Origin: a virus
Strand: one strand, 5' to 3'
Virus record (IMG/VR): IMGVR_UViG_3300022700_000208
Coordinates: 17,646 to 81,645 of that record
DNA: 64,000 nt
Below the pieces are notes generated by a model, which saw only the letters and a program-made list of their open reading frames with translations, was not told the origin of the DNA and ran no database searches. A program made the translations under genes and the position numbers. Positions 3,288-34,903 of the stretch are shown piece after piece (within the stretch, counting starts at the first letter, position 1; every line of letters starts with the position of its first letter).

Positions 3288-3311
3288 AGCAACAGGGGAA
3301 AGACATCATAG

Positions 3312-3848
3312 ATGAATATTGCAGAATTGATACTCAAAACAATGGATGAAAGTGGGGCCGAAGACACAGGGATGGTTGGCCAGCAGATGCTTAATAAAGC
3401 TAAAAAGGCCCTACTGCCTGAAGAAGATGAGGACATGGATGATGAGCTTAAGCAAAAGATTCAGGAGCTTAAGCAATATGAAGCCAATGAAGATCTTGGC
3501 TGGATGGATTTTGCTTCCTGGAGATCTCTAAAAACCCCTGTACATACAGTCTTTTCTAAAGAATTGGAGCCTCTTTTTTGGAGTGGTGTTTATTTTAGTT
3601 ATTCTCAGTTTATGGAGAAAAAAGAAATCATCTTAAAGGATATGGATGTTGGGACTACAATCAATATACAAAAGCATGGATCTAATTTTCAGTTTATTTG
3701 TCTTAACTCCCGATCCAGTATTTATGATTATTTTGGTTCTGTTGAACTTGAAAAGTTAAAGAAGTGGTATGTGTCCACAAGATATAAGTCCATAGGAAAG
3801 ACAATCACACAGGGACTAATAGTTAAAGATTTCAAGGAGGACAAATGA
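3312..3848 (+). CDS. Unknown acidic protein
   Basis: A 178-residue protein of unknown function, starting at an ATG after GGGGAAAG and overlapping the next gene by 4 nt (ATGA). Residues 30-60 are strongly acidic (EEDEDMDDE); the C-terminal two thirds look like a folded alpha/beta domain rich in aromatic residues. There are no Cys pairs, transmembrane stretches or nucleotide-binding motifs. It lies directly downstream of the gp46-like gene and is probably co-transcribed with it, so a role in DNA metabolism is possible but not shown by the sequence. Confidence 0.7.
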   Translation: MNIAELILKTMDESGAEDTGMVGQQMLNKAKKALLPEEDEDMDDELKQKIQELKQYEANEDLGWMDFASWRSLKTPVHTVFSKELEPLFWSGVYFSYSQFMEKKEIILKDMDVGTTINIQKHGSNFQFICLNSRSSIYDYFGSVELEKLKKWYVSTRYKSIGKTITQGLIVKDFKEDK

Positions 3849-14043: not shown

Positions 14044-14158
14044 TTCTCATTTTACCTCTTATGTATGAATAATCTATTCTCTTTCTGGACGTAAGTATCT
14101 GAAATCAGGAGGGGAATGGAATATACATACACAACCAGATGTATAGAATAAGATATAC
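14044..14158 (+). promoter_or_regulatory. Probable promoter-containing gap
   Basis: A 115-nt gap between the palindrome and the next gene. It holds AT-rich TATAGAATAAGATATACAT just before the 14159 start, with ATATACAT occurring twice, and an unused CAGGAGGGG further left. A promoter for the tagged-gene block is likely here because the preceding palindrome probably ends transcription, but I cannot define its boxes. Confidence 0.35.
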
Positions 14159-14419
14159 ATGTCTAAGAATACGTGCAGAAAATGTAAGCATTTTAGAAAA
14201 CACCGATTATCCTCTATGGATGGGTTCTGTCTGAACAGTGTGGGCAATAAACCAGTGAATTATTCTTTTTACTGTCCAATGTTCACTCATACTTTAGGTG
14301 CTACCGAAGGGAAGAAACATGGGAAGAGCCAAAAACCTAGTGCAGGAAATAAGTGGCAAGACCTCGATTTCCCAGATAATCCTGGACTTCCGAAAGGCTA
14401 TCAAAGGGAAATTCAATAA
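14159..14419 (+). CDS. Small Cys-rich protein
   Basis: An 86-residue protein with CRKCKHFRKH near the N-terminus and two more Cys (GFCLNS, FYCPMF) in the first 43 residues, the spacing of a small zinc-binding or iron-sulfur-like module found in many phage and bacterial hypothetical proteins. The second half is hydrophilic and overlaps the next gene by 101 nt in another frame. Function unknown. Confidence 0.58.
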   Translation: MSKNTCRKCKHFRKHRLSSMDGFCLNSVGNKPVNYSFYCPMFTHTLGATEGKKHGKSQKPSAGNKWQDLDFPDNPGLPKGYQREIQ

Positions 14420-14528
14420 GAGAACATCCAAGACAAATTTCACTGCTAAGGGTGCTGTTTTTGAATTTGATTATGAGGATGGTGTTCGCTACCGAGTAAC
14501 TGTGGAGTCCCTGGAGAAAAAGAAATGA
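14319..14528 (+). CDS. Small tagged protein
   Basis: A 69-residue protein starting MGRAKNLVQEISGK, a clear variant of the M-[S/N]-[K/R]-A-K-x-L tag, which decides the start (ATG 14319, with AGGGAAG upstream) over an in-frame alternative at 14298. The body is small and beta-rich (VFEFDYEDGVRYRVTVESL). It overlaps the preceding gene by 101 nt and the next by 4 nt. Confidence 0.62.
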   Translation: MGRAKNLVQEISGKTSISQIILDFRKAIKGKFNKRTSKTNFTAKGAVFEFDYEDGVRYRVTVESLEKKK

Positions 14529-14767
14529 GTGATAAGTCAGATAATGTAAGACATCTCCCCTCTCTAGGAGATAATCCTAAAGGACTCATCCATAATGTCC
14601 AGCAGGAAGTGGATGATCTTGATGATGTGTTGGTGATTGGAAGGAAAAAGGATGGTGGGGTTAGTGTCTGGTCTACCCGTTCAGAGGCTTATTATTTTGG
14701 GGCCTGTCAGGCCATAATCCAAGACCTGACCTTGGCATCCTTTAATGGGGATATCGTCGATGAGTAA
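14525..14767 (+). CDS. Unknown small protein
   Basis: An 80-residue protein starting in an ATGA overlap. Residues 30-75 (LDDVLVIGRKKDGGVSVWST, then a helix) look like a small alpha/beta domain seen in some phage proteins of unknown function. It has no tag. It overlaps the following tagged gene by 8 nt. Confidence 0.62.
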   Translation: MSDKSDNVRHLPSLGDNPKGLIHNVQQEVDDLDDVLVIGRKKDGGVSVWSTRSEAYYFGACQAIIQDLTLASFNGDIVDE

Positions 14768-15014
14768 GGCTGACAGGCTTCTACAGCTTTGTGAGGTCCT
14801 AAGCCAGGAGGAGGTTGAGGACCAGGCTCAGGTTCTCATTTCCCTGCTCCGCAAAAGTGAGGACAAACTGGAGACAGCGGCTGAGTGGCTTAACTCCAAG
14901 GATTTCCAGGACAAGGACCGAAAGAAGATTGGCCAGGAGTATAAGAGTCTGGCCAAAAATCTTAGAGATCTGCCCAGTTGGGAAGACATTTTGAAAGAGG
15001 TAGCTAAGAAATGA
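14760..15014 (+). CDS. Small tagged helical protein
   Basis: An 84-residue protein beginning MSKADRLLQLCEVL. The tag sets the start at ATG 14760 rather than the in-frame ATG at 14745. The body is helical, acidic and basic alternating, with no recognised domain. It overlaps both neighbours. First of four consecutive tagged genes leading up to the terminase large subunit (14760-16316). Confidence 0.68.
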   Translation: MSKADRLLQLCEVLSQEEVEDQAQVLISLLRKSEDKLETAAEWLNSKDFQDKDRKKIGQEYKSLAKNLRDLPSWEDILKEVAKK

Positions 15015-16329: not shown

Positions 16330-18897
16330 TTGGCATCTAAGAGTAACTGGCAATGGCAAAAAATGGAAAAACGAGATTCGTTCGATATAATAAGGAAGTC
16401 TCTAGCCAAGAGAAGGCTATTAGATTTTACCCAGCACACAAAGCCAAATTACAAAGCAAATTGGCACCATAAACTGATATGTGACAAGCTTGATAAGTTT
16501 ATAGAAGGTAAGATCAAAAGACTGATGATCCTAATGCCTCCTAGGCACGGTAAACAAGTTTCTTTTGATACTCCTGTTTTTACTCCTTCGGGTTGGACAA
16601 TCCATGGAGATCTTCAAGTTGGTGATGAGGTGTTTGGCCCTGATGGGAATCCTACTAAAGTGATAGCTTTAAGTGAGGAGTCTTATCAAGATATTGAGGT
16701 AGAATTATCTAATGGTCAGATTATTGAGTGCCATGAAAATCATGAGTGGTCCTTTTATGATAGGTCTCGTAGGGTTTGGAGAACTAAAGAGACAAATTGG
16801 TTTTTAAATAGGAAAGTTGTAAGTTCAGGAAGATGTATATTTCAACTTCCTAATATCAATCCTCTTTATTTTGCTGAAAAAAATCTTGAGGTTGATCCTT
16901 ATTTTCTTGGAGTGTGGTTAGGAGATGGAACATCAATTAAGCCTACTCTGAATTTGTGCTCTGATGATGAGGGTTATATATTATCTGGAATCCCCTATAA
17001 TTTTAGCTCTAGGGCTGTCCATAAAGATACAAAGGTCCCAAGTATAAATTATTATGGGGAAGTCAAAGATAATATTGAAAAATTAGGTCTTTTCGGGAAT
17101 AAGCATATTCCAAAAGATTATTTATACTCATCTTTAGAACAGAGAGTTCAACTTTTGGCAGGTCTTATTGATTCAGATGGGCATGTTGAAAAAGAAGGAA
17201 GAGTTAGGTTTGTTAATACAAATAAGGATTTGATTGATGGAGTTTATGAGCTTCTCAGAACACTCGGACAAAGACCTTATCTTACTTCTCAGGAAGCTCA
17301 TAGCAGTACAACTCTTCCTATAAATTCTGACAAAAAATGTTATGCAGTAGGTTTTCAGCCTACAATTGATATACCTACTAGGGTTCCAAGAAAAAAGATA
17401 AAGAGGATTGTAACTCAGAGAAGAGTTGGGATTAAAGATGTAAGGAGAGTTGATAAAAAGACTAAAGGAAATTGCATTCAAGTTGATAGGGAGGATGGTC
17501 TTTATTTAGTTGGGGAGAGTCTTATCCCCACACACAATTCAGAATTAGTTAGTAGGAGACTTCCTGCTTACATATTTGGGAAAAATCCAGATGCTCAGGT
17601 GATCTCAGCCACGTATGGAGCTGAGCTATCACAGAGATTGAATAGGGATGTTCAGAGGATTATTGATTCTGATCCTTATAGAGATTTGTTCCCAGAAACA
17701 CAGCTTTCTTCCAAGAATGTAAAGACAACCTCAAAGATGAGTTATTTAAGAAACTCAGATATCTTTGAGATAGTAGGAAGAAAGGGAGTTTATCAGTGCG
17801 CTGGAGTTGGAGGCGCATTGACTGGTATGGGAGCCAATTATGTGTTGATTGATGATCCCTTTAAGAACCAGGAAGAGGCAGACTCCCCGACGATAAGAGA
17901 AAAAGTTTGGGATTTTTATTCCTCTGTTCTTTATACCAGGCTTGAAACCCAGCTCAGTGATGGAAGCGTAGTCAATAGTGATGGGGGAATTCTTCTTACT
18001 ACAACCAGATGGCATGAGGATGATTTAGCTGGAAGGCTAATCACTCAAATGCATGAAGATCCTGAGAATGCTGATCAATGGGAGATCATCAATCTCCCAG
18101 CAATTATTGAAACTCAGGAGGAGGAAGAAAATTCTATTGATCCCAGGGTAATGGGAGAGGCTCTTTGGCCTGATAAATTTGATGAGAAAAAGCTTCACGT
18201 TATTAAGTCCACTCTTGGTTCCAGAAAGTGGGCTGCTCTTTATGAGGGAAGACCTGCTCCTGATAAGGGAGACATTGTAGAAAGAGAGTGGTGGCAATAC
18301 TATACAGATCTTCCTGAAGAGCTTGATTTCAAGCTTATTTCTGTGGACTGTGCTTTTAAGGGAACCAAGAAATCAGACTTTGTAGCTATACAGGTCTGGG
18401 GCAAAAAAGGAGTTCACAAATATCTGATCCATCAGGTTCGAGCCAAGATGGGTTTCAATGCAACTGTGGAGGCTATCAGGCAAGTTAAATACAAATATCC
18501 TGATGCTATGGAAGTTCTTATTGAGGAAAAAGCCAACGGGGCGGCTGTTATAGAAAGTCTTAAGAGTGAGATTGAGGGAGTAACTGCCTTCAATCCTAAA
18601 GATTCTAAAGAGTCCAGGGCCAAGGCTAATGCTGTGGCTCCCCAGATTGAGGCTGGAAATGTTCATATTCCCGATCCCTCAGTTGCTTCTTGGGTTGGTG
18701 ATTATGTTGAAGAGTGGGCTGTGTTCCCGAACAGTCAGAATGATGATCAGGTGGATGCCACATCTCAAGCTCTTATCAAGATGCATCAGACAGCCTATGA
18801 ATGGGTTGATGTGGTTGATCATCTTGAGCAGGGAAAAGGCATTGAAGGTCTTCCTCCAGAAGTGGCTGAGCAACTTTGGCCTAATCATGCTGGATAA
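16330..18897 (+). CDS. terL: Terminase large subunit, interrupted by an intein
   Basis: An 855-residue precursor; removing the 328-residue intein leaves a 527-residue packaging motor. The ATPase has a Walker A split by the intein (MPPRHGK then SELVSRR), Walker B YVLIDDPF and the coupling motif TTTRWHEDDLAGRL. The nuclease domain shows LISVDCAF, VLIEEKANG and the final Asp in NDDQVDATS. This fits the TIGR01630-type large subunit, which translocates DNA into the prohead and cuts it. The start is uncertain: TTG at 16330 or ATG at 16363, neither with a good ribosome binding site. Splicing must occur for ATPase activity because the P-loop is broken. Confidence 0.93.
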   Translation: MASKSNWQWQKMEKRDSFDIIRKSLAKRRLLDFTQHTKPNYKANWHHKLICDKLDKFIEGKIKRLMILMPPRHGKQVSFDTPVFTPSGWTIHGDLQVGDEVFGPDGNPTKVIALSEESYQDIEVELSNGQIIECHENHEWSFYDRSRRVWRTKETNWFLNRKVVSSGRCIFQLPNINPLYFAEKNLEVDPYFLGVWLGDGTSIKPTLNLCSDDEGYILSGIPYNFSSRAVHKDTKVPSINYYGEVKDNIEKLGLFGNKHIPKDYLYSSLEQRVQLLAGLIDSDGHVEKEGRVRFVNTNKDLIDGVYELLRTLGQRPYLTSQEAHSSTTLPINSDKKCYAVGFQPTIDIPTRVPRKKIKRIVTQRRVGIKDVRRVDKKTKGNCIQVDREDGLYLVGESLIPTHNSELVSRRLPAYIFGKNPDAQVISATYGAELSQRLNRDVQRIIDSDPYRDLFPETQLSSKNVKTTSKMSYLRNSDIFEIVGRKGVYQCAGVGGALTGMGANYVLIDDPFKNQEEADSPTIREKVWDFYSSVLYTRLETQLSDGSVVNSDGGILLTTTRWHEDDLAGRLITQMHEDPENADQWEIINLPAIIETQEEEENSIDPRVMGEALWPDKFDEKKLHVIKSTLGSRKWAALYEGRPAPDKGDIVEREWWQYYTDLPEELDFKLISVDCAFKGTKKSDFVAIQVWGKKGVHKYLIHQVRAKMGFNATVEAIRQVKYKYPDAMEVLIEEKANGAAVIESLKSEIEGVTAFNPKDSKESRAKANAVAPQIEAGNVHIPDPSVASWVGDYVEEWAVFPNSQNDDQVDATSQALIKMHQTAYEWVDVVDHLEQGKGIEGLPPEVAEQLWPNHAG
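16555..17538 (+). other. Intein with LAGLIDADG endonuclease in terminase
   Basis: A 328-residue intein within the terminase P-loop. The first block reads QVSFDTPVFTPSGW, so residue 1 is Gln rather than Cys or Ser. The block B region ends HENHEW. The end is LYLVGESLIPTHN followed by Ser, giving the canonical His-Asn and a +1 Ser that restores GKS. Between lie the two LAGLIDADG helices, YFLGVWLGDG and LLAGLIDSDGHV, so a DOD homing endonuclease is present and looks intact. It is related to the intein at 26299-27306. Confidence 0.92.
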
Positions 18898-18899
18898 TC

Positions 18900-19121
18900 A
18901 TGAGCAATACTAGGTTTGAGCCGACAAATAAACTCAGAGTAGCTAAGTGGACAGAGCGGGTGAAAAGCAATGTTGATCCCATGAAACATCCAGTTGGCAA
19001 ACCTATTCCTACAAAAATTGTGGAAAGACAGGCCATTCAGCAACTCTGGTATTGTGTGAAAACAGGCAAAGAAGAGTGGAGATTCCTGGAAGAAGTTAAT
19101 CTAGAGGCATCAGAGGTTTGA
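18900..19121 (+). CDS. Unknown small protein
   Basis: A 73-residue basic protein that starts two bases after the terminase stop (ATCATG). It has a Trp-containing helical C-terminus (QQLWYCVKTGKEEWRF). No recognised domain. It is tightly followed by the next gene. Confidence 0.62.
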   Translation: MSNTRFEPTNKLRVAKWTERVKSNVDPMKHPVGKPIPTKIVERQAIQQLWYCVKTGKEEWRFLEEVNLEASEV

Positions 19122-24134: not shown

Positions 24135-25928
24135 ATGGCAAACACCGAAGAGCAAACTCAAAATCAATCATCAGGAGAGCAGGGAAATAGGATAGCTCTC
24201 AATGAAGAGCAGTTAAGGGTTCTTGAGCGTGTATTCCCTGGATTCTCTAATGATGATGCTAATGCTGACAGTATCCTGGAGAATCTTATTGTCGGCTTTA
24301 ATGATCCCAACACTCTTTCTAATATGAGTGCTTCCAGTAGGAATTTTGATTCCTATCAGGTAGCGGCTGCCTATGCTGCTATCTACACCAAGTCTACTCG
24401 CTCTCGTTATGAGCTTATAAGGAAGGTGGAAGAGGCTAGAGATTTCTATTTGGTTGAGACCATTACTCAGCAATTCACTGAGGATGCTCTGAACCCAGAG
24501 ACAGGAACTGGCAATATTCTCAATGTCAGTTCTAAAAATAAAAAGATTCAGCAGGAAATTGATCTGTTGGATGAGCGCTTTGATTTTGATCAGATGGCCC
24601 AGACCATCACTCCTGATATGATCCTTTACGGAGAGTACACTCTCAAGACTGAGGTCAACACTTATGATAAGGACAAGGGATCAGTAAAAAATAATCAGGA
24701 TGGTCAGGAAAGAAAGCTCAGTGAAAAAAGCATTCATGAGCAGCAGATAGATAAGCTTAATAAGCAAAAGTCTGTTGATGAAAAAGAAGAGTCTAATGCT
24801 GGCCTGGTTAATATTCTTGATAATGTTGAGCAGGGATCAGTTATTGCTCTTGAAAAGGATGGCGGTATTGATGGTTATCTTGTGATCAATCATAAGGGAA
24901 GGCTTCAAAAAGCTGAGCCTGCTGATTTCATCAAGTTTGCTCTTCCCAGGACCAGAATACGTATTGATCTTCAGAATGAGGTCAGTGGTGTTGTTAGACA
25001 TTTTGGGGGAAATCCTCAAAGAGAGTCTGTCAAAAAAGAACTTGCTAATGTCCCAAGATTTATTCGGGTTGGACGTTCTATTATTGCTCCCTTTCTATCT
25101 AAGATTAAAGAGCTTCAACTTCTAGAATCTCTTATCCCAGCAACCAAGATATCCAAGTTATCCAATGGAAATATAGTTGGTGTACAGCTTCCTGAGAATA
25201 CTAAAGTTGAACAGGGGATGAATGTTGCCAATCGCCTTGAGCAGGTGATCAATAAAAAAGTCGGTGTTGATAAGGAAAAGGGTGAGCTTAATATTGAAAA
25301 TATTATGGCAACTTCAGGCAGGACTAAATGTATTCCCATGTTTGGGGAGAAGGGCCGCCTTGAGAAACTCGATTTCAAATCTGAGGAGCCTGATGATCTG
25401 TTGAATGCTGTCAAGGAAATGAGAGAGACCATTCTTGACAGTGCAGGTATTCCTCATGAATTGGTTTTTAAATCTGAGGGGGATACTAAGAGTGAGATCC
25501 TTAAGCGTTATGCCAGATATCTAAGAAGGCTCAAGCAAATCCAAAAAGGTATTTGTGATGGTATCAAGCAAATGATCTATATCCACCTGGCCAATAAGGG
25601 AATTGAATTTGATCCAGAAGAAATCAGTGTTGAGTTTGAGAATAAGATTGTCGAGATCGACAACCTGGACACTCTTGAGTTCATGGATACCACGGTGGGA
25701 ATGCTTGATAATCTCAAGAATTTCCTTGGGGAACTCAATGAGGAAGGATCTCCCTTAGAGGGCCGAGTGAATTCTGAATCCTTGGCTGATTTCCTTGAAG
25801 AGCAGCTTAGAATTGTGGGGCTCAATAAAGTTATTCTTCCCAGACAAAAACAAAAGGAAAATCCTCCTGATTATGAACCAGAATCCAAAAAAGAAAATGA
25901 TCCATTAGGTCCAGAACCTGAAATATAA
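24135..25928 (+). CDS. Portal protein (T4 gp20-like)
   Basis: A 597-residue portal. Recognised by a helical N-terminal part with EEARDFYLVETITQQFTEDA, a central section with ADFIKFALPR and RSIIAPFLSKIKELQLLE, and a C-terminal part with RETILDSAGIPHELVFKSEG and YLRRLKQIQKGICDGIKQM. The family forms the dodecameric ring at the unique vertex through which DNA enters, and nucleates prohead assembly. Length is slightly above T4 gp20 (524). It is preceded and followed by tagged genes. Its own N-terminus (MANTEEQTQNQSSGEQG) is not tagged. Confidence 0.88.
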   Translation: MANTEEQTQNQSSGEQGNRIALNEEQLRVLERVFPGFSNDDANADSILENLIVGFNDPNTLSNMSASSRNFDSYQVAAAYAAIYTKSTRSRYELIRKVEEARDFYLVETITQQFTEDALNPETGTGNILNVSSKNKKIQQEIDLLDERFDFDQMAQTITPDMILYGEYTLKTEVNTYDKDKGSVKNNQDGQERKLSEKSIHEQQIDKLNKQKSVDEKEESNAGLVNILDNVEQGSVIALEKDGGIDGYLVINHKGRLQKAEPADFIKFALPRTRIRIDLQNEVSGVVRHFGGNPQRESVKKELANVPRFIRVGRSIIAPFLSKIKELQLLESLIPATKISKLSNGNIVGVQLPENTKVEQGMNVANRLEQVINKKVGVDKEKGELNIENIMATSGRTKCIPMFGEKGRLEKLDFKSEEPDDLLNAVKEMRETILDSAGIPHELVFKSEGDTKSEILKRYARYLRRLKQIQKGICDGIKQMIYIHLANKGIEFDPEEISVEFENKIVEIDNLDTLEFMDTTVGMLDNLKNFLGELNEEGSPLEGRVNSESLADFLEEQLRIVGLNKVILPRQKQKENPPDYEPESKKENDPLGPEPEI

Positions 25929-25938
25929 GGAGAGTAAA

Positions 25939-28785
25939 ATGAGTCGAGCAAAGTCACTCCTGAATACATTCAATGAAGCCAGAATTGGTGACGATAAAAC
26001 TCAGCATAATGATCGGTTTGCTGTCCTTGGGGGAGGTAATGCCTATCTTCCAACAGGAAAAAGGCAGACAGCCGAGAAGTTAACTGCTGGGGCTTACGTT
26101 CCTAAAATGAGCCCTCAAGGTGTTGTGTTTGAAAAGGCTCAGATCAACACTGATGAGATCCTTCGCTTTGAGGATGAAAGACAAAAGAAGGTTGTCAAAA
26201 GAGTAGAGAAGTTTTGGGAGCAGGGCCAACGCTATAATCAGTTTGGCTTTACTCATTCCTTCGGTCTTCTCATGGAAGGTCCCCCAGGCAGTGGAAAATG
26301 TCTGGGTAGAGGGACTCCTGTTCTCATGTACGATGGATCTACCAAGAAAGTAGAGGATGTAGTTGTAGGGGATAAATTGATGGGAGATGATTCTACTCCT
26401 AGAACTGTTAAATCAACTACTAGTGGATATGAGCAGATGTACAGGGTTGTTCCTGTAAAAGGTGATCCTTATGTAGTTAATGAATCTCATATCCTTAGCC
26501 TTAAGATGTCCTGCGCAGCAGGAGGAAAAGAAAAAGGTGAGAAGGTAGATATCTCTGTAAGAGAGTATATGGAAAGAAGTAATCATTTTAAGCATTATGC
26601 TAAAGGATATCGAGTAGGAGTCGACTTTGAAGAAAAAGAGGTTCCTCTAGATCCTTATTATCTTGGGATATGGCTAGGAGATGGAAACAATAAGGATCAG
26701 AGTATTTCCAACCCAGAGGAAGAAATTCTTGAGTATCTTTATTCTTTGGGTGAAGAAAGAGGGCTTCATGTATATGCTGATACTCAAGAAGGAAAATGTC
26801 CTTTAATAAAGCTAGTGAAAAAAGAAGGATTATATAATAACCTTCTTGATTCTTTGAGAGAACTTGAGCTTATTAACAATAAGCATATCCCCCATATTTA
26901 TAAAGCCAATTCAAAAGAGAATAGACTTCAGCTTTTGGCTGGTTTATTGGACACAGATGGTTATTATTGTAATGGTTATTATGAAATAATGAGCAATAAC
27001 TCAGTCTTGAAGGATGATATTCTTTATCTTGCAAAATCTCTTGGTTTTGCTGCCTACTATAAAGAAAAAGAGGCTAAGTTAGAAAATTGGGATGAGCCAA
27101 GGACCTATTATAGGATATCTATTTCAGGGCATGTTGATGAGATTCCATGTAAAGTGGAAAGGAAGCAAGCAGAGCCAAGAAAACAAAAGAAAGATGTTCT
27201 TTCTACGGGAATCACTTTAGAGAAGTTGGAAGTTGATGAGTATTTTGGTTTTGAGATTGATGGTAATAGGAGATTTCTCCTGGGGGATTTTACTGTTACT
27301 CACAATACCGTGATAGTAAAACAAGTTCTTGAGGATGCTATCAATCAAGATCATATTGCTCTCATTTGCAGGAATGTGGATGATTTGGCTGAAGGTCTTA
27401 ATGCTCTAAGAGAGGTTGAGCCTGATCGCAAGATCCTTTGTGTGATGGAAGATATTGAAAACCTCATCAAGTTTGGGGATCAATCTCTCATTCAGCTCAT
27501 GGATGGGGACAATAAGCAAGAGGGTGTGTTCTACCTGGGAACTACAAACCATCCTGAGAAGATCCATCCCCGTGTTAAAAGAAAAGGCAGGTTCTCAGAG
27601 ACCATTCATGTTCCGTTTCCTCCCAAAGAGGGAAGACAAGCCTATCTCAAGAAAAAGCTTGGCCAGCATGAGGATGCCAAGGAAATCAATCGCATTGTGA
27701 AAGCCACAGAGGGCCTTAGTTTTGCCCACCTCAGGGACTACATCATTGGGACCTATTGTGAGGAGAGAAACTCGGATGAGGTTCTCAGCGAAATTAAGGA
27801 CGTGTCAGTGGAGGAGCTTAAATCCCAGGGCCTTACCTATGATGAGTTTAAAGAAAAGCTTGAGGAGGCTCTTGGAGTCCAGAGCACCGCTTCATATAAC
27901 CAGTCCTTGAATGAGGATACAGTCCGTACTCCTAGCGATAAAGCCAAGAGCAAATCTCAGCGCCGCCGAATGGAGAGAATGAAGAGCAAATATAAGAAGC
28001 AAAAGAGCGAGTCCAGGGCTTCTAAGCTCTTAGAGGAGATGGATGATTCTGGGTTCAGTCTGATTGATCCTGAAGAGATCAAAAAGGAATTCAGGCAGAA
28101 GATCAAGAACTTTGGCATTGAGGGAGTCAATGTTGAGGATGTCACTGTAGACATGGAAAATGATATCATTGTCAATTTCTCTGATGATGAGGGAGATGAA
28201 CTCCTGGCCATTTTCCAACACAATGAAGAGGAAGCCTGGGTTCTTATTGTCGATGATGAGGAGGAAGCTGAAAATGAAGAGGGAGAAGCCATTATTGTGG
28301 ATCTTAGTCCTCTTCCATTTGCCCTTAGGGATACCCCAATCGGTAAATATTTAGAGCTTGCCACTCTTGAATGGATGAATAAGTCCACTCTTGTTTCCAT
28401 CCTAAGAGCTGGGGAGATCGGATATGATAAGCAGATCAAAGACTATAGCAATAGCTATGATGCTTATGGGAACCGAGTTGTAGCTCCAGCCGAAGCCAAA
28501 GTCAGTGAGGAAGATCTTAAGAAACATCTTCAGGAAAGTGGTGTTGATGAGCTTAAGAGAACAGTTGTCAGAGGAGGAAAGAGAGTCAAACTCCCTGTGG
28601 TGATAAAGAAGAAAAAGAAAAAGCTCACTGGTAAACAAAAGGCAGGCATCAGAAAAGGTGCAAGGAAAAGAAAAGCCAAGAAGGCTCAGATCCAGAGGAA
28701 GAGAAAGAAATCCCTGAAGAAAAGAAAGCAAATGGGCCTTAAAAAGGGAGGTCTTGGGACTCGAAGAAAGCTCAAAGGAAGATAA
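25939..28785 (+). CDS. Tagged AAA+ ATPase interrupted by an intein
   Basis: A 948-residue precursor; 612 residues remain after removal of the 336-residue intein. It begins MSRAKSLLNTFNEARIG, the tag, with FNE/A at Glu13 as a candidate cleavage site. The AAA+ core has GPPGSGK split from T by the intein, Walker B CVMEDIENL, and sensor-1 GTTNHPEKIHPRVKRKGRFSE. The C-terminal part contains a second tag-like SRASKLLEEMDDSGFSL, an acidic domain, then a very basic tail (RKGARKRKAKKAQIQRKRKK). The leader TAAGGAGAGTAAAATG is shared with tagged genes. A tag, AAA+ and basic tail together are unusual; role unknown, probably in the head. Confidence 0.88.
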   Translation: MSRAKSLLNTFNEARIGDDKTQHNDRFAVLGGGNAYLPTGKRQTAEKLTAGAYVPKMSPQGVVFEKAQINTDEILRFEDERQKKVVKRVEKFWEQGQRYNQFGFTHSFGLLMEGPPGSGKCLGRGTPVLMYDGSTKKVEDVVVGDKLMGDDSTPRTVKSTTSGYEQMYRVVPVKGDPYVVNESHILSLKMSCAAGGKEKGEKVDISVREYMERSNHFKHYAKGYRVGVDFEEKEVPLDPYYLGIWLGDGNNKDQSISNPEEEILEYLYSLGEERGLHVYADTQEGKCPLIKLVKKEGLYNNLLDSLRELELINNKHIPHIYKANSKENRLQLLAGLLDTDGYYCNGYYEIMSNNSVLKDDILYLAKSLGFAAYYKEKEAKLENWDEPRTYYRISISGHVDEIPCKVERKQAEPRKQKKDVLSTGITLEKLEVDEYFGFEIDGNRRFLLGDFTVTHNTVIVKQVLEDAINQDHIALICRNVDDLAEGLNALREVEPDRKILCVMEDIENLIKFGDQSLIQLMDGDNKQEGVFYLGTTNHPEKIHPRVKRKGRFSETIHVPFPPKEGRQAYLKKKLGQHEDAKEINRIVKATEGLSFAHLRDYIIGTYCEERNSDEVLSEIKDVSVEELKSQGLTYDEFKEKLEEALGVQSTASYNQSLNEDTVRTPSDKAKSKSQRRRMERMKSKYKKQKSESRASKLLEEMDDSGFSLIDPEEIKKEFRQKIKNFGIEGVNVEDVTVDMENDIIVNFSDDEGDELLAIFQHNEEEAWVLIVDDEEEAENEEGEAIIVDLSPLPFALRDTPIGKYLELATLEWMNKSTLVSILRAGEIGYDKQIKDYSNSYDAYGNRVVAPAEAKVSEEDLKKHLQESGVDELKRTVVRGGKRVKLPVVIKKKKKKLTGKQKAGIRKGARKRKAKKAQIQRKRKKSLKKRKQMGLKKGGLGTRRKLKGR
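26299..27306 (+). other. Intein with LAGLIDADG endonuclease in the AAA+ ATPase
   Basis: A 336-residue intein starting CLGRGTPVLMYDGS (Cys1) and ending FLLGDFTVTHN followed by Thr. It separates GPPGSGK from T, so the insertion is inside Walker A. The block B region is NESHILSL. LAGLIDADG motifs are YYLGIWLGDGNN and LLAGLLDTDGYY. It shares DPYxLGxWLGDG and NKHIPxxY with QLLAGLxDxDG with the terminase intein, so the two are related. Splicing and homing-endonuclease residues look intact. Confidence 0.93.
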
Positions 28786-28786
28786 T

Positions 28787-29221
28787 ATGAATTATGGCAA
28801 GTGGTATGCCCAGGAAATGGACCGATTGGGTGATGAAATTGAGGATCAAGAAAACCATCGTAAGGATAGAGAGGAGACAGACATGAGTAAAGCCAAGGAA
28901 CTGACAGAGAAATTCAATAAGGTAGATGAGAAGGACTTAAAGTCTGAGGATCTCAAGGAATTTGCTGATGCTATCAGTGAAACTATAGGCAAAGTTCAGA
29001 ATTTTGTCGATGGGTATCAAAGAGTCAGAAAGAGACTCAATAAGGATATGCAGAAGGCAAAAGACAATGTTGATAATCTTGGCTCTGGAGAGTCTGATGA
29101 GAGTGTTCAGGAAGAGCTTCATGTTCTTGCCGATATGATGCAAGATTTCCTTGAAAGTATGGAGGAGCTTGCGAATGATAACAAAAAAGAAATGGAAAAC
29201 GCTGTAAAGAAACTTAAATAG
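28787..29221 (+). CDS. Tagged protein, two possible starts
   Basis: A 144-residue reading frame from ATG 28787 (MNYGKWYAQEMDRLG), which follows the AAA+ stop at once. A second in-frame ATG at 28883 starts MSKAKELTEKFNKV, the tag, and has GAGGAG 6 nt upstream; it would give a 112-residue tagged protein. Both starts may be used, or the first 32 codons may be a separate leader. The body is helical with coiled-coil character. I list the longer frame because the gap would otherwise be unusually long for this phage. Confidence 0.62.
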   Translation: MNYGKWYAQEMDRLGDEIEDQENHRKDREETDMSKAKELTEKFNKVDEKDLKSEDLKEFADAISETIGKVQNFVDGYQRVRKRLNKDMQKAKDNVDNLGSGESDESVQEELHVLADMMQDFLESMEELANDNKKEMENAVKKLK

Positions 29222-29236
29222 ATAGGAGTTTGTACT

Positions 29237-29569
29237 ATGTCAAAAGCAAAAGAATTGAAAGAGAAATTCGATAAAACCAAACAAGGTCAGTCTGTATCTG
29301 AGCAAGGGACCAGCCCTAATAATGTTGCTAAGACAAGAGATCAAGTTGCAAAGAGATTAGGTGCAGCTCAGAAAATTATGTCTAAGCCTGATCCTGAAAA
29401 TTTAAAACAGATTGTACAGGGACATCTAGATGCTTTGGATGCTGTTAGGTCAGGTCTTGTTTCCATGTTTAAAAAAGAAGGAAATAAAGACATGCAAAAG
29501 GTAATAGATAAAGTTTCTGACTCAGAAAAAGAACTAAGAGACTTGGTTAAAAAAGAGGATTTTTTCTAA
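29237..29569 (+). CDS. Tagged helical protein, 110 residues
   Basis: A 110-residue protein beginning MSKAKELKEKFDKTKQGQ, with VSE/Q at Glu22. Helical and basic throughout, with a helical pattern (HLDALDAVRSGLVSMFKKEG) resembling the end of the preceding protein. TAGGAG lies upstream. Function unknown. Confidence 0.69.
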   Translation: MSKAKELKEKFDKTKQGQSVSEQGTSPNNVAKTRDQVAKRLGAAQKIMSKPDPENLKQIVQGHLDALDAVRSGLVSMFKKEGNKDMQKVIDKVSDSEKELRDLVKKEDFF

Positions 29570-29570
29570 T

Positions 29571-29801
29571 ATGTCCAAGGCAAAAAACTTGCTTACTTTG
29601 GTCTCAGAGGCCAGTAAGCCAAAAATTGAAAAGCTCAAGTCCATTTGGGAGGGCTTAAGCTCTAGACAGAAAAAAGAGTTAATGGCCCTTTATGCTTTCT
29701 CCGAGTTCAATGAAGAGTTTGATCACCTATCTTCTTATCAGAAGGAAGTGATGATCAATAACCTAGAAGTAGCAGAATCATTTTCATCGAAGGAACACTA
29801 A
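29571..29801 (+). CDS. Tagged small protein, 76 residues
   Basis: A 76-residue protein beginning MSKAKNLLTLVSEASKPK; VSE/A follows at Glu13, the same distance as in the AAA+ ATPase. The body is helical. It starts after the previous stop and overlaps the next gene at one base. Function unknown. Confidence 0.69.
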   Translation: MSKAKNLLTLVSEASKPKIEKLKSIWEGLSSRQKKELMALYAFSEFNEEFDHLSSYQKEVMINNLEVAESFSSKEH

Positions 29802-30367: not shown

Positions 30368-30913
30368 TTGGATTTATCCCTTGAGATGCTTTTCACAGTT
30401 TTGGCCCTATTTGTAGGGTTAGCTGGTCTTATTTGGAAGATGGTTGACTCCCTTATCCAGAGACAGGAGTCTGCTAAAAAGCGGATTATTGAATCTGAAA
30501 AGCAATCTAAAAAGGAAGCCTTGGATAGGGAACTTGATGCCAATAAGAGACTTGAGGAAGAAAAGGCCCAGATCCAAAAGGAACTTGAAAAGCAAAAGCA
30601 GCGCCATGTTGATCAGCTCATTCAGGGAATAAGGGAAGAAATATCCAAGCTGGACAAGAAACTAAGTCGTGTTCATGAGTCCTATATAGAGCTTAACACT
30701 AAGTTTGAGAGCAATGAGGACAAATATAATCAGGTCCTTACAGAGGTTCATGAGTTTTTTAAAACCACTAAAGCCAGATTCGACATGCTGGAAAAACAAG
30801 CCAGTAATCATGAGGCATCTATTGAAGACATAAAAACCAGGCTTATGGATATTGGAAATGATTTAGTGATTGTGAAAGATGCAGCCGATAAAGTGAGGTC
30901 AAGCAAAGGATGA
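30368..30913 (+). CDS. Membrane-anchored coiled-coil protein
   Basis: A 181-residue protein. TTG at 30368 with AAGGAGGAG upstream is the likely start (an ATG at 30386 is in frame). One transmembrane helix at about residues 8-26 (LFTVLALFVGLAGLIWKMV) is followed by 150 residues of charged coiled-coil. This could be a spanin-like or scaffolding protein; similar architecture is found in inner-membrane spanins, but no partner is visible nearby. Confidence 0.66.
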   Translation: MDLSLEMLFTVLALFVGLAGLIWKMVDSLIQRQESAKKRIIESEKQSKKEALDRELDANKRLEEEKAQIQKELEKQKQRHVDQLIQGIREEISKLDKKLSRVHESYIELNTKFESNEDKYNQVLTEVHEFFKTTKARFDMLEKQASNHEASIEDIKTRLMDIGNDLVIVKDAADKVRSSKG

Positions 30914-31782
30914 AGTTTCACACCCTAGAAGATAAAAAAATGTTTCTCATTGAATGTGGGAGGTCCGACCTCCTGGATAAGATTAATGAGTCCTACGAGC
31001 CCTCCCAGGAACTTCAGGAACTATTCCTTAAGAAAAGAAGAAAGAAGATCCCCACTCTTAAGAACTTCAAAAAGTCTCAAGCCACATCCCAGCAGTGGAG
31101 GAAGAAACGCTTTAAGATGATGCGTGGCATTAAAGACTTTCATAAATCCACGTCGGGAAAGAGGTTTCACCGCGCCTTAGGTAGGTTCATTGCAACCAGG
31201 GATTTCAGAAGCAAGAGGTTTACCAGGGAGAACTATAATCTAGGAGAGGTGTGTGAGGTCCTCAAAGCCCTCTCAAGCGCTAAAACTCAATCCTACATAA
31301 CCCTGGAGTATTATAAGCCAGCGGACAAACAAGCCGATTTTGAGCTTTTCATAGAGGAGATTGTTCCGATTATCGAACAGATTGAGAAAAGTCTAGTGGT
31401 CGGAAAGGAAATCAGTGAGGAGGAGCTTGATCTGCTGGTCAGGATAACTGATGAGAAGGTGATCCTAGACTACCTGGACAATAGTCAAGGAAGGTTCAAT
31501 GCTCTTCATAGTTTCTGGGCTCACATGAATGAGATTGGTGATCCCAGTGAAATTGGTTTTTATCTTGATACTCTCAATTGCACCAAGCATTTGAATGAAG
31601 AGGGCAGGATTATATCCACGATTGCAGAAAGGACAGGCCACTCTTATCAGGAAGTGGAACGCTCTCATAACAGACATAAGGCCAATTTGGTTAAAGAGGG
31701 GATCAAAAAATACGAAAGTACGAATAATTCGTATTTTCCCCGATTATTTGACGGGATCAAAAAGGACCTTAAACTAGACTAA
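30910..31782 (+). CDS. Unknown basic protein, 290 residues
   Basis: A 290-residue protein that starts in an ATGA overlap. Residues 40-110 are strongly basic (KKRRKKIPTLKNFKKS, WRKKRFKMMRG), then a helical acidic middle and a basic end. It shows no signature domain. The last gene of the block before conserved element copy 2 and the prohead protease; a structural or DNA-binding head role is plausible. Confidence 0.65.
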   Translation: MKFHTLEDKKMFLIECGRSDLLDKINESYEPSQELQELFLKKRRKKIPTLKNFKKSQATSQQWRKKRFKMMRGIKDFHKSTSGKRFHRALGRFIATRDFRSKRFTRENYNLGEVCEVLKALSSAKTQSYITLEYYKPADKQADFELFIEEIVPIIEQIEKSLVVGKEISEEELDLLVRITDEKVILDYLDNSQGRFNALHSFWAHMNEIGDPSEIGFYLDTLNCTKHLNEEGRIISTIAERTGHSYQEVERSHNRHKANLVKEGIKKYESTNNSYFPRLFDGIKKDLKLD

Positions 31783-31895: not shown

Positions 31896-33380
31896 ATGGG
31901 TGATCCAGCTCAAGATTTAGGTCCTAATTCCAATGAGGTTTTGGGAGTATTTGAACCTGATGCTGGCTTCAGACTTGAAGAAGCAAATGGTGAAGTTGGG
32001 GGAAAGCATGTCTTAGGTCGAGTTAAGGGAACTTTCTTTGTTCCAGAAGGGGTTTCCCGCAATAACCGATACTACCCCAAGGAGTTATGGGAGAGGGTTG
32101 TCCAAGATCCCATGATCAAAAAGCGTCTTGAGGAAAGGCGCATGTTTGGGACCATCAGCCATGAGCAACCCTTGGATGATAAAGCTCTCCTTGATGGAAA
32201 GATCAGCCATATTATCACTGATCTTCAGATCAAGGAAGGAAAGCAGGGATACGGGGAAGCCTTAATACTCGACACCCCTGCTGGGAATATTCTCTATCGA
32301 GTTCTCCAGGCAGGAGCCAAGTTATTTGTCTCCTCTAGGGCCAATGGCCAATTCAAGGGAGAAGAAAGGGGAATACCTAAAGTTGATCCAGAAACATTTC
32401 AACTGAATACTTTTGATTTCGTTATGGACCCTGGTTTTGTTCAGGCTAATCCACAGATGGAAAGTCTTCAGGAAGCGTTGAATAAACTAAAGAAACTTGA
32501 GGAGACTATGGGACAGCAAAATAATAATCAACCAAATCAAGAAAACAATAAATCACAAGGAGATGAGCAAATGGGCCAACAGAATAATCAGGATCTTTTA
32601 GAAAAGCTCTCCAAGCAAAACAGTGACCTGGAGCAGCAACTCGACACTGCCACAAAAGAGGTTGAGCGTCTTAAGGAAGAGAACACCACTCTTACGGATG
32701 AGAACAATAACCTCAAAGAGGAAATGAAAAACCACAAGCAACTTACAGAGGAAGTTGAAAAATATCGAAAGCTTGGAACTCCTGAAGAGATTGAAGAGGC
32801 TTTTGAGTCCGCTGAAAAACTCCATGAGGATAATAAAAAGATCACTGAGGAACTTGGCTCTGCTGAGGAAATTGAGGAATCAATTGATGCAGCTACAAGC
32901 CTCATCGAAGAATACAAAGAGCTTGGCTCTCCCAGTGAGGTCAGTGAAGCTCTTGATGCAGCAGAAAAGACAATTGATGAGTATGCTGAATATGGAACTC
33001 CTGATGAAATCGGTCAGGTCTTTGAACGTGCTGAAAGCATGGTTGAAGAGAAAAAGCAAGAGAAGGAATCCAAAGAGGTTGCTCAGCTTGCTTCTGAAAT
33101 TGGAGTTTCGGAAGAAAAAGTCCGAACTCTTTATGGAAAAGTCTCCAATGAAGAAATCAAGAAAGTTCTTGGGGAAGGCAAGAAAGACTCAGAGAAACCA
33201 GGAAAATCTGAGTCTCTTACTGAGCGCTTCAAGAAAAAAGGAACAAGTGAAAACAAAGATTCCAGTGAAGGTGAAGATGAAGGTGAAAAGAAAACTCCCT
33301 TCAATGAATCTGGAGTCAATCGCTTGTTAAAACGAACAGGTCCTGTCCGCAAGGAAGATCCTGTTGAGAGTCCTCGATAA
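31896..33380 (+). CDS. Prohead protease fused to scaffold-like region
   Basis: A 494-residue protein. Residues 35-195 match the T4 gp21-type prohead protease (S78): FFVPEGVSRNNRYYPKELW, the catalytic His in GTISHEQPL and the catalytic Ser in KLFVSSRANG. T4 gp21 is about 212 residues, so the remaining C-terminal 290 residues are an extension: Gln/Asn linker, coiled-coil, then four tandem 23-residue repeats of the type LGTPEEIEEAFESAEKL (about residues 290-390), resembling a gp22-like scaffold. An in-frame ATG at 32571 could give a separate scaffold. TAAGGAG precedes the ATG. The protease should mature the capsid and cleave tagged cargo. Confidence 0.88.
   Translation: MGDPAQDLGPNSNEVLGVFEPDAGFRLEEANGEVGGKHVLGRVKGTFFVPEGVSRNNRYYPKELWERVVQDPMIKKRLEERRMFGTISHEQPLDDKALLDGKISHIITDLQIKEGKQGYGEALILDTPAGNILYRVLQAGAKLFVSSRANGQFKGEERGIPKVDPETFQLNTFDFVMDPGFVQANPQMESLQEALNKLKKLEETMGQQNNNQPNQENNKSQGDEQMGQQNNQDLLEKLSKQNSDLEQQLDTATKEVERLKEENTTLTDENNNLKEEMKNHKQLTEEVEKYRKLGTPEEIEEAFESAEKLHEDNKKITEELGSAEEIEESIDAATSLIEEYKELGSPSEVSEALDAAEKTIDEYAEYGTPDEIGQVFERAESMVEEKKQEKESKEVAQLASEIGVSEEKVRTLYGKVSNEEIKKVLGEGKKDSEKPGKSESLTERFKKKGTSENKDSSEGEDEGEKKTPFNESGVNRLLKRTGPVRKEDPVESPR
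32571..33380 (+). CDS. Probable nested scaffold protein
   Basis: In-frame ATG at residue 226 of the protease fusion, with AAGGAG (32557-32562) 8 nt upstream, starts MGQQNNQDLLEKLSKQNSD. Translation from here gives a 269-residue, acidic coiled-coil protein with the four 23-residue repeats and no protease domain. This is the arrangement of phage lambda C/Nu3, in which a scaffold is translated from within the protease gene. A less likely in-frame start at 32508 also begins MGQQNN but its AGGAG is too close. Confidence 0.55.
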   Translation: MGQQNNQDLLEKLSKQNSDLEQQLDTATKEVERLKEENTTLTDENNNLKEEMKNHKQLTEEVEKYRKLGTPEEIEEAFESAEKLHEDNKKITEELGSAEEIEESIDAATSLIEEYKELGSPSEVSEALDAAEKTIDEYAEYGTPDEIGQVFERAESMVEEKKQEKESKEVAQLASEIGVSEEKVRTLYGKVSNEEIKKVLGEGKKDSEKPGKSESLTERFKKKGTSENKDSSEGEDEGEKKTPFNESGVNRLLKRTGPVRKEDPVESPR

Positions 33381-33387
33381 AGGATTT

Positions 33388-33457
33388 CTTAGTTAGTTTG
33401 TGGTCTGGACTTCAGGGGCAAACTACGGGGAAACAAAAACAAACCAAACTGACTAAG
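33388..33457 (+). promoter_or_regulatory. RNA hairpin over the major capsid ribosome binding site
   Basis: CTTAGTTAGTTTG (33388-33400) can pair over 13 bp with CAAACTGACTAAG (33445-33457), with one U-G wobble. The 3' arm covers the first three bases of AAGGAG (33455-33460), the ribosome binding site of the capsid ATG at 33470. The 44-nt loop is G- and A-rich. Opening or closing this stem could control capsid translation. Confidence 0.5.
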
Positions 33458-33469
33458 GAGATTGCGAAA

Positions 33470-34903
33470 ATGCAAGGTCAAATGAATGAAGATTCAAAAT
33501 TACAGGCCATTGATAAAATGGCAGAACAATATTATGAGCGCTATCGAAACAACATGGACGCTCTTGAGCAGTCCTTGAACTGCTCCATCAAAAAAGATGG
33601 CCTCGATGCAAATGATGTTTTTGCATTGGGAAGCCAGCTCGAAAAGTTTGAAAACTTTGTCGAGATGTGTGAGGAAGTCGGTAACACAAACCTTCTTGGC
33701 ACCCTTCCCAAAATCGGTATGGACGTGATCACAGCAGTACATGGTTCTTCCATTATTCCTGTTGTGGCTTCTGTTCAGCCTATTGAGGAAGAGTCTGGCT
33801 TGGTTTGGTTCAAGACTGTTCGCAGTGAAAACACTCGTGGTTCTCAGACAGCAGGCGATGTTGTCCGTGATCCTCGAACAGGCACTGTCTATCCTCAAGG
33901 CTATGCTTCGGGCCGAATTCAGAATGAGCAGGAAGCTACATCAGGTGCTCAGTTCACCTATAGTTTCACTCTCAGTTTTCCTCCGATCCGAAGTGAAAGT
34001 CTCCGTCTTGAGCTTTCTCAAAACTCAGATGTTTTTGCTCGTGATGTTGGCCCTCAGGGTGCTGACAAAAACATCGGGACATTGCTTGGAGCAGGTGTCA
34101 GCGGTACAGTGAATTACACAACTGGCCAAGTTGATGTTGAGTTCACTAGCGATCCTGGCGCTGGCAATATGGTTATGGAATATCAACAGAACTTTGAGCG
34201 TTCTTCTGATATTCCTCAGATCCAGAACTTCTTTGACTCAAAGCAAGTTCGCGCTCATCCGTACACATTGAAAGCCACATTCGGCATGATCCAAGACTTC
34301 ACTATGAGAAAGCGTTTTGGCTTTTCTGCCCAAGACAGCTTGTCAGAAGATCTTGTCACTGAAATCAATAAGGAAGTTGGTGGAGATCTTATCCGCTTGA
34401 TCGACGCGGTTAAGCTTGGCTCTGAGAACTTTGATGCCAGCGCACCTTCTGGTGTTTCCTTTTTCGAGCATAAGCAAACGTACAAAGACGTTCTTGCTCG
34501 GGCCACTACAAACCTCATTAACAATGCAGGTCGTGGTCAGATTTCAGTGCTCATTGCAGGCTTGGATCACACAGCCATTATCCAGACACTTCCTGGCTTC
34601 CAGCGTGTGTCTGATGGTTCTGCTCTTGGAACTCAAGTGATCGGAACCTTGGATGGTATGACAGTGGTTCAGGTGAAGGATACTAACCTTCTTGCAACCA
34701 ATCGCGCATTGGCCATTTGGAAAGGTCCGACACCTTTTGAAGCACCTGCTGTCTGGTCTCCGTTTATGCCTCTTGCCACTACAGGAACTCTTCCTGAGTC
34801 TCCTAACCCGTTAGTTAGCATGAAAGCTGGAGCTGTTGTGGGTGCCGTTGAATCACTGGTTCCTCAGTTTGCCACTGAGATCACTATCAGTAACGCACCT
34901 TAA
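33470..34903 (+). CDS. Major capsid protein (T4 gp23-like)
   Basis: A 477-residue capsid protein of the HK97/gp23 fold. I take the ATG at 33470 (MQGQMNEDSKLQ), with AAGGAG 9 nt upstream; an in-frame TTG at 33398 lies within the leader hairpin. Residues 85-110 (LLGTLPKIGMDVITAVHGSS and the following VQPIEE) match the conserved gp23 segment, as do the later DHTAIIQTLPGF and the C-terminal region. It forms the capsid shell. A maturation cleavage site near the N-terminus is expected but not obvious. Position after protease and scaffold is the T4 order. Confidence 0.9.
   Translation: MQGQMNEDSKLQAIDKMAEQYYERYRNNMDALEQSLNCSIKKDGLDANDVFALGSQLEKFENFVEMCEEVGNTNLLGTLPKIGMDVITAVHGSSIIPVVASVQPIEEESGLVWFKTVRSENTRGSQTAGDVVRDPRTGTVYPQGYASGRIQNEQEATSGAQFTYSFTLSFPPIRSESLRLELSQNSDVFARDVGPQGADKNIGTLLGAGVSGTVNYTTGQVDVEFTSDPGAGNMVMEYQQNFERSSDIPQIQNFFDSKQVRAHPYTLKATFGMIQDFTMRKRFGFSAQDSLSEDLVTEINKEVGGDLIRLIDAVKLGSENFDASAPSGVSFFEHKQTYKDVLARATTNLINNAGRGQISVLIAGLDHTAIIQTLPGFQRVSDGSALGTQVIGTLDGMTVVQVKDTNLLATNRALAIWKGPTPFEAPAVWSPFMPLATTGTLPESPNPLVSMKAGAVVGAVESLVPQFATEITISNAP

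Follow-up and report, generated by a model that had tools for sequence, protein, structure and literature searches.

A YjoB-like AAA ATPase apparently fused, with an internal tag, to a portal-adjacent phage head gene

The DNA examined here, called the window, is a stretch of 64,000 nucleotides from IMG/VR virus record IMGVR_UViG_3300022700_000208 (positions 17,646 to 81,645 of that record). At 25939-28785 it contains an open reading frame (ORF) which comparison with related contigs supports as a YjoB-like AAA ATPase fused to a portal-adjacent head gene, the latter encoding an acidic domain and a basic tail. A short peptide found at the N-terminus of other proteins of the window, called the tag, is present in this ORF twice, once at its start and once inside. 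A preliminary description, made from the letters alone, had proposed that a tagged cargo gene had fused to an ATPase gene. The parts of the ORF are listed below, where L005, L102 and L105 are related contigs and pLDDT is the confidence of AlphaFold models.

25939-28785, plus strand: whole ORF of 948 residues with an ATG start, predicted to encode a tagged AAA ATPase with an intein and a tagged C-terminal core protein
25939-25977, plus strand: N-terminal tag MSRAKSLLNTFNE, residues 1-13, the last residues being hydrophobic-x-E
25978-26298, plus strand: N-extein, with the N-terminal beta region and the first half of Walker A, terminating in GPPGSGK (fold from the L005 homologue)
26299-27306, plus strand: intein of 336 residues with a homing-endonuclease domain, at the Lys/Thr junction of Walker A (PF05203, PF05204 and PI-SceI chains of the PDB; absent in L005)
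27307-27900, plus strand: C-extein, the remainder of the AAA domain (PF00004; CDC48 and YjoB chains)
27901-28008, plus strand: variable basic linker, 13 of 36 residues being K or R (2 of 40 columns identical with L005; low pLDDT in the L005 model)
28012-28047, plus strand: internal tag SRASKLLEEMDD, residues 692-703, the presumed former start of the C-terminal gene
28048-28578, plus strand: acidic C-terminal domain (CTD) and disordered loop (AlphaFold model, stand-alone homologues)
28579-28782, plus strand: basic tail, conserved with L102 and L105, with a terminal signature tentatively likened to that of T4 gp68

The internal tag was evaluated with a profile of the 20 other N-terminal tags of the window, the ATPase being excluded, which was scored over 19,691 segments of 12 residues. 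True N-terminal tags scored 16.3-26.0 and the next internal site 11.1; residues 692-703, at 22.5, fall among the true tags. This value was reached in none of 60 shuffles of the whole set and in one of 2000 shuffles of the ATPase only; a chance origin of the inner tag was ruled out by the profile score and the shuffles. Between the window and L005, 8 of 13 columns of the inner tag were identical, against 2 of the preceding 40, and conservation equal to that of the inner tag was found in 11 of 182 segments of the same length in the C-terminal part and in 36 of 289 in the ATPase part. In the AlphaFold model of L005, the inner tag is located within a low-confidence linker (pLDDT 44-52) with confident domains on both sides. 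The preliminary description had noticed the N-terminal tag, a second tag around residues 690-705, an acidic domain and a very basic tail, all of which were recovered: residues 691-880 contain 47 D/E and 20 K/R, and tail residues 881-948 contain 35 K/R and no D/E.

Relatives of the two parts were found in fused and in stand-alone forms. L005, reached via the capsid protein of the window, encodes a 580-residue protein of the same layout, with MSRASAALANLNK at its start, ESKSRAAALIEDMD inside, an acidic domain and a basic end. As this fusion is full length, lies on another contig and lacks the intein, an assembly artefact is an unlikely source of the fusion in the window. In L013, reached via an ATPase alignment, the ATPase, of 331 residues, goes no further than the AAA part, and the C-terminal part is the product of a gene of its own (MSKANKIIEMINEFVP...; BLASTP E-value 4e-14 against the L005 CTD). 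L021 also has a separate C-terminal gene (4.6e-40 with the CTD profile), its ATPase being cut by the contig end. Alignment of the portal added L102, L103/L104, L105 and L108, with CTD profile matches at 2e-46 (L108), 1.3e-45 (L102), 7.8e-25 (L105) and 3.4e-14 (L104). The two halves are encoded as separate genes in L013, L021 and L108.

Among 12 records (G000 to G011), the C-terminal profile matched nine and the ATPase profile seven. The C-terminal part was stand-alone in seven (G002, G003, G005-G009, of which G006 and G007, with an identical match, probably represent a single phage) and part of a fusion in two (G000, G001), the fused pair being this window and the independent contig L005. Both genes were present and separate in G002, G003 and G009. 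No match to the C-terminal part was found in G004 (15.7 kb), G010 (5.8 kb) and G011 (202.5 kb), and the profile search did not find the ATPase in G010 and in G005, G006, G007 and G008, the last four being records which may be incomplete. Furthermore, a raw half of the window gave no match among viral contigs, the portal alignment none among genome contigs, and the CTD or its tail none by tblastn among 50,697 phage records, a search in which the low-complexity filter may mask the tail.

The stand-alone proteins of L013, L021 and L108 start with clear tags (MSKANKIIEMINE, MSRADELVKKLTE and MKAIDVTNKINE, respectively). Because most stand-alone C-terminal copies begin with a tag-like peptide, the inner tag is, on this comparison, the old start of a separate portal-adjacent head gene. 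The preliminary description had recommended a search for split versions in relatives; a stand-alone C-terminal gene was encountered in seven of the nine CTD records, and three of these also have the separate ATPase. It had also named what would speak against its idea, namely a second segment that never resembles a separate tagged gene; relatives show the opposite, their separate C-terminal protein having a tag or a tag-like peptide at its start, a clear tag in L013, L021 and L108. The proposed fusion therefore stood. The nature of the partner did not: the C-terminal segment is a conserved portal-adjacent head gene and not a small cargo, and its supposed kinship with the small tagged proteins of the window, as a copy of one of them, was contradicted by an hhalign probability of at most 1% in all 27 comparisons. 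A separate CTD produced from an internal translation start was also considered and rejected: the ATG at 27979 of the window has a GGAG nearby and is not conserved in L005, where neither in-frame ATG before the inner tag has, by eye, a strong ribosome-binding site.

The genes around the fusion in the window are the following.

24135-25928, plus strand: portal-like protein, directly upstream of the fusion ORF (alignment A8 with its kin, portal tree; no Pfam match; named from its position and kin)
28883-29801, plus strand: three small tagged genes (28883, 29237, 29571)
30910-31782, plus strand: conserved head-region gene, placed in kin between the CTD and the protease; it does not resemble gp68
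31896-33380, plus strand: S77 prohead protease (PF03420, 8.9e-10; phrog_207, 3.2e-32)
33398-34903, plus strand: Gp23-type major capsid protein (PF07068, 1.6e-12)

The C-terminal gene was located between portal and prohead protease in the window and in all six tabulated kin loci (L005, L013, L021, L104, L105, L108). The same order of portal, C-terminal gene and protease was read from the record coordinates in G005, the genome of L102; in G006 the check covered the portal and the C-terminal gene. The separate ATPase gene of L013, L021 and L108 is found upstream of the portal or the terminase. The reverse history, in which the fused gene is ancestral and was split in kin so that the inner tag became a new N-terminus, finds some favour in the inner tag being already a plausible start region, with the ATG at 27979 in frame 33 bases upstream. 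It is nevertheless very improbable in view of the stand-alone CTD in seven of nine records and in both clades of the portal tree, of the distance between ATPase and CTD in the three genomes with separate genes, and of ATPases without CTD well outside the clade of the window. The presence of stand-alone copies in each of the two portal clades makes fusion the simpler course of events.

Two observations concern the same region in kin. The stand-alone C-terminal gene of L104 (12275-13720, 481 residues) has an apparent zinc-ribbon-like insert in its disordered loop (weak Pfam matches), and in L013 the capsid gene region is interrupted by a homing-endonuclease-like gene (14070-14768), presumably of the GIY-YIG type.

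AlphaFold modelling of the C-terminal part (27994-28782) gave a confident core at model residues 22-142, with ten-residue pLDDT means of 78-91 and one at 65. The tag helix was weak (about 51-54), and the rest of the model consisted of a disordered loop and a basic helix. For L005, confidence was high over the AAA part (78-328) and over the CTD (381-494). The CTD fold had no clear match (best Foldseek E-values 0.048 among viral models and 0.63 in the PDB; best Z on a second look 5.3), and its profile had none in the PDB.

The place of the gene and the end of its tail recall T4 gp68, a prohead core protein whose gene lies between those of gp67 and gp21. Pairwise hhalign of the tail end IQRKRKKSLKKRKQMGL with the gp68 end AQRKRKKALKRRKALGL gave an E-value of 5e-4, and none of 100 shuffles of the gp68 C-terminus was as good. 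With a four-tail profile, gp68 came first of 833 T4 ORFs, at an E-value of only 0.12; a short tail pattern occurred in T4 in gp68 alone and, among the kin ORFs scanned, only in the C-terminal genes of L102 and L105. The common features with gp68 (phrog_1049) are the neighbourhood between portal and protease and, tentatively, a C-terminal signature, QRKRKKALKRRKALGL against QRKRKKSLKKRKQMGL. However, the similarity is confined to about 17 columns, the only ones aligned by hhalign between gp68 and the CTD, with no likeness outside the tail; the CTD proteins have an extra folded domain, and the whole CTD profile did not find gp68 in T4 at an E-value of 10 or better. The C-terminal gene may tentatively be called gp68-like in place and tail, not a member of the gp68 family. 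As for phrog_1053, the basic tails of the window, L102 and L105 were matched by its final third, but no function is assigned to it and it was rejected as the CTD family. It was not found in T4, S-PM2, KVP40, Va2, Carin-5 and the megaphage behind L004, and its weak match in Peetri (0.0036) fell outside the part that matches the tails.

The tag, of the SKAKxL type, is common to at least 20 small proteins of the window (10262-38016), the majority around terminase, portal and protease, and none was seen in the 17.7 kb of the record upstream of the window. Its relation to a protease was examined on 67 tags of proteins of 60 residues or longer, 21 from the window and 46 of the 49 candidates from six kin loci (three were too short). 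A hydrophobic-x-E motif, the consensus at which T4-type prohead proteases cut, was present with Glu at position 8-20 in 56 of them, against a shuffle mean of 28.4; none of 2000 shuffles reached 56, and control segments of the same proteins gave 17 and 13. The prohead protease profile phrog_207 matched 13 of 17 records, including every searched record with a CTD, the four misses measuring 14-73 kb; PF03420 matched 11 of 17, nine above the curated cut-off.

In T4, according to excerpts of PMC5694885 and PMC9958956, internal proteins bear a capsid targeting sequence (CTS) and the gp21 protease cuts after Glu, Alt being cut at both ends, at ITE-6 and LTE-619. The likeness to the T4 system of IPI-III, Alt and gp21 lies in a short N-terminal peptide common to unrelated proteins, with hydrophobic-x-E, in a phage that has an S77 protease, a Gp23-type capsid protein and a sheath. 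Here, the tag has another sequence, is carried by at least 20 genes, and also occurs on an ATPase and inside a fusion, and packaging would follow by analogy. The tag could instead be another shared N-terminal helix, making membrane or scaffold contacts elsewhere or serving expression, with no head-targeting role. The link between tag and head comes from sequence, and the T4 CTS resembles it in design, not by direct sequence comparison; even so, such a helix is unlikely, as the tagged genes cluster near terminase, portal and protease, hydrophobic-x-E is enriched in the tags, other lineages show this design again with local sequences of their own, and the tag was kept inside the fused protein, where a role in expression would have no place.

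Tag-like peptides were also observed at other positions. Homologous enzymes in L005 (3748-5100) and L104 (19083-20369), which we take to be ATP-grasp-like (no Pfam match for L005), apparently carry them at opposite ends, C-terminal SRAGQILQQMIS in the former and N-terminal MPKVNYLLNEIKSINE in the latter. In L104, a 231-residue protein (2968-3663) has an N-terminal tag and a second one at residue 71 (score 16.1), a candidate internal tag, and a 181-residue protein (18537-19082) ends in tag-like SKAKKALELLFAAEV, a candidate C-terminal tag.

Regarding the ATPase, the preliminary description had called its AAA+ core proper. An AAA domain with Walker A and Walker B is indeed present (PF00004 at residues 506-559, 4.7e-5), but it is interrupted in the ORF by an intein, overlooked at that time, which splits Walker A. 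The intein extends from Cys121 to Asn456 and interrupts the motif between Lys and Thr (GPPGSGK/C...HN/T). Its hallmarks are all present: N-terminal Cys, C-terminal HN, +1 Thr, Hint and endonuclease domains (Hom_end_hint at residues 121-190, 4.4e-18; Hom_end at 317-397, 2.7e-7) and an empty homologous site, the uninterrupted GPPGSGKT of L005. Walker A is whole only once the intein is removed, and the spliced protein is predicted to have 612 residues since 336 of the 948 belong to the intein. The P-loop invariant Lys/Thr junction is a 'classic' intein site known in phage terminases, as an excerpt of PMC5050341 reports; the host there is TerL, whereas here it is a head-region AAA ATPase.

Other inserts of this kind were noticed. 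The terminase large subunit of the window (16330-18897) has an intein-like insert in its ATPase motif (PPRHGK/Q...HN/S), with a LAGLIDADG endonuclease (PF14528 and PF05204 at residues 260-330). In L017 (9812-11902), a megaphage AAA homologue carries a similar intein at a different point of Walker A (GPPG/C...HN/SGK), so that inteins seem to have entered the P-loop of this ATPase at two sites.

An ATPase that is cargo would be expected to carry the local tag in other lineages as well. In 11 phages, the ATPase N-terminus was compared with the start of every ORF in its locus or record, with 200 shuffled queries. Local tags were found on the ATPases of L024 (best two scores 35 and 34, 0/200 shuffles), L029 (32, 0/200), L108 (30, 1/200), L013 (28, 1/200) and L025 (27, 2/200), and in L023 the second match was reached by 0/200 shuffles and the first by 9/200. 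The ATPase shares a local peptide, unlike that of the window, with unrelated neighbours in at least three lineages (L024, L025, L029), and does not in the megaphage forms tested. These three have their own N-terminal peptides on several genes including the AAA ATPase, for example MAKNEIQKAVDRLV, MKDPIEQAIDMVIGE and MVITSEQIESAIDLMLTE. A T4-like CTS on the megaphage ATPase of L016 (MTKKYKTYRDIFIAE), suggested by a likeness to T4 internal protein tags, was dropped because no neighbour shares it (102/200 shuffles as good).

A search of the PDB with the ORF returned Cdc48/p97, YjoB (7w42, 4.4e-17 at residues 489-633) and PI-SceI chains. The AAA domain of L005 matched PF00004 at 2.6e-19, and its predicted fold matched phage and viral BCS1-type AAA models. 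The BCS1_N domain is the mark of BCS1. It was absent from the Pfam matches up to an E-value of 0.01 for the window and 0.1 for L005, L013 and L014, and the ATPase was therefore not filed as BCS1. Bacillus subtilis YjoB and phage BCS1/YjoB-like ATPases are alike in sequence and fold in their AAA domain and N-terminal beta region, to which the window protein adds the tag, the fusion partner and the intein. The closest named phage relative is the 'putative ATPase YjoB' of Xanthomonas phage phiXF1 (WZX06539.1, 1338 residues, 37-39% identity), which is also fused to other material, but with the AAA domain C-terminal and no CTD; the ATPase profile had no match in 11 named phages. The AAA domain was also met in giant proteins of 1080-1338 residues (L001 5497-9513, L015 7865-11833, L024 3137-6379, L027 9152-13015). 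As these carry long unknown parts at different ends, fusion to this ATPase appears to recur.

Taken together, we consider that the best reading, with a probability of roughly 60%, is that the ATPase forms part of the prohead core, possibly being made as a two-protein precursor that the protease cuts. First, the intein would splice itself out and restore Walker A. Guided by its N-terminal tag and by the core-protein part, the ATPase would then enter the prohead core close to the portal, and the prohead protease would cut after hydrophobic-x-E in both tags. Because of the flexible linker around the inner tag, cleavage there would separate the ATPase ring from the core protein, and the ring so released would be enclosed in the head. 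Other tagged cargo may be its substrate there, or it may leave with the ejected DNA. By the logic of the tag, delivery of the ATPase to the head is likely; delivery into the host, also raised in the preliminary description, would be a conjecture.

The main rival, compatible with the same fusion of ATPase and CTD, is a BCS1/YjoB-like chaperone moving folded tagged proteins into the growing prohead: the fusion would dock the ATPase at the portal, the tag would be a docking handle, and presence in the virion would be unnecessary. A review of 224 jumbo phages proposes, in the excerpt concerned (PMC7824862), that BCS1-like AAA proteins translocate folded head-packaged proteins; the YjoB match, the BCS1-type fold of L005 and the at least 20 candidate clients in the window agree with such a loader. 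Against it, a pure loader has no need of a protease site in its tag, the Pfam scans lack BCS1_N, and the CTD occurs without a detectable ATPase in G005-G008, records that may be incomplete and whose loci L104 and L105 hold tag-like genes too. We regard the loader as a serious but improbable competitor.

Several points weigh against an ATPase of the prohead core. Packaging, cleavage, splicing and ATPase activity are all predicted from sequence. The starts of L104 (MKATEFLHEQED) and L105 (MKLIQQLFEEM) resemble variants of the tags of their own loci as judged by eye, and the L102 N-terminus, whose start is uncertain, is tag-like only with a later start. The periodicity of amphipathic helices can itself yield hydrophobic-x-E. 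The local tag of the L014 ATPase was weak (18/200 shuffles), and the ATPases of L028, L016, L045 and L003 shared none in the comparison of ORF starts. Finally, the window and L005 grouped weakly in the CTD tree (support 78/81) and were not joined in the AAA tree, where a constraint placing them together was not rejected (p-AU 0.31); owing to this weak grouping two fusions are possible, and a single event is compatible with the data.

A bolder form of the prohead-core reading can be put forward only tentatively. The ORF would be a prohead polyprotein with two targeting tags, cut inside the head at the inner one and leaving an ATPase ring in the capsid and, more broadly, tagged AAA ATPases would be recurrent encapsidated motors of T4-like phages, each with the label of its own phage.

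A limited search of the literature, from which absence cannot be proved, retrieved no description of an AAA ATPase that bears a tag and is joined to a core protein. The same head-region protein, free and tagged in kin, is fused here with its tag kept, and this turns what had been a guess into a comparative case. If the reading is true, a motor driven by ATP can be housed in a phage head, and the inner tag would indicate that a targeting signal tolerates internal positions, which bears on tagged cargo and on the function of the protease site. These are also phages in which the proposal of head loading by BCS1-like ATPases, as worded in the excerpt of PMC7824862, may be directly tested.

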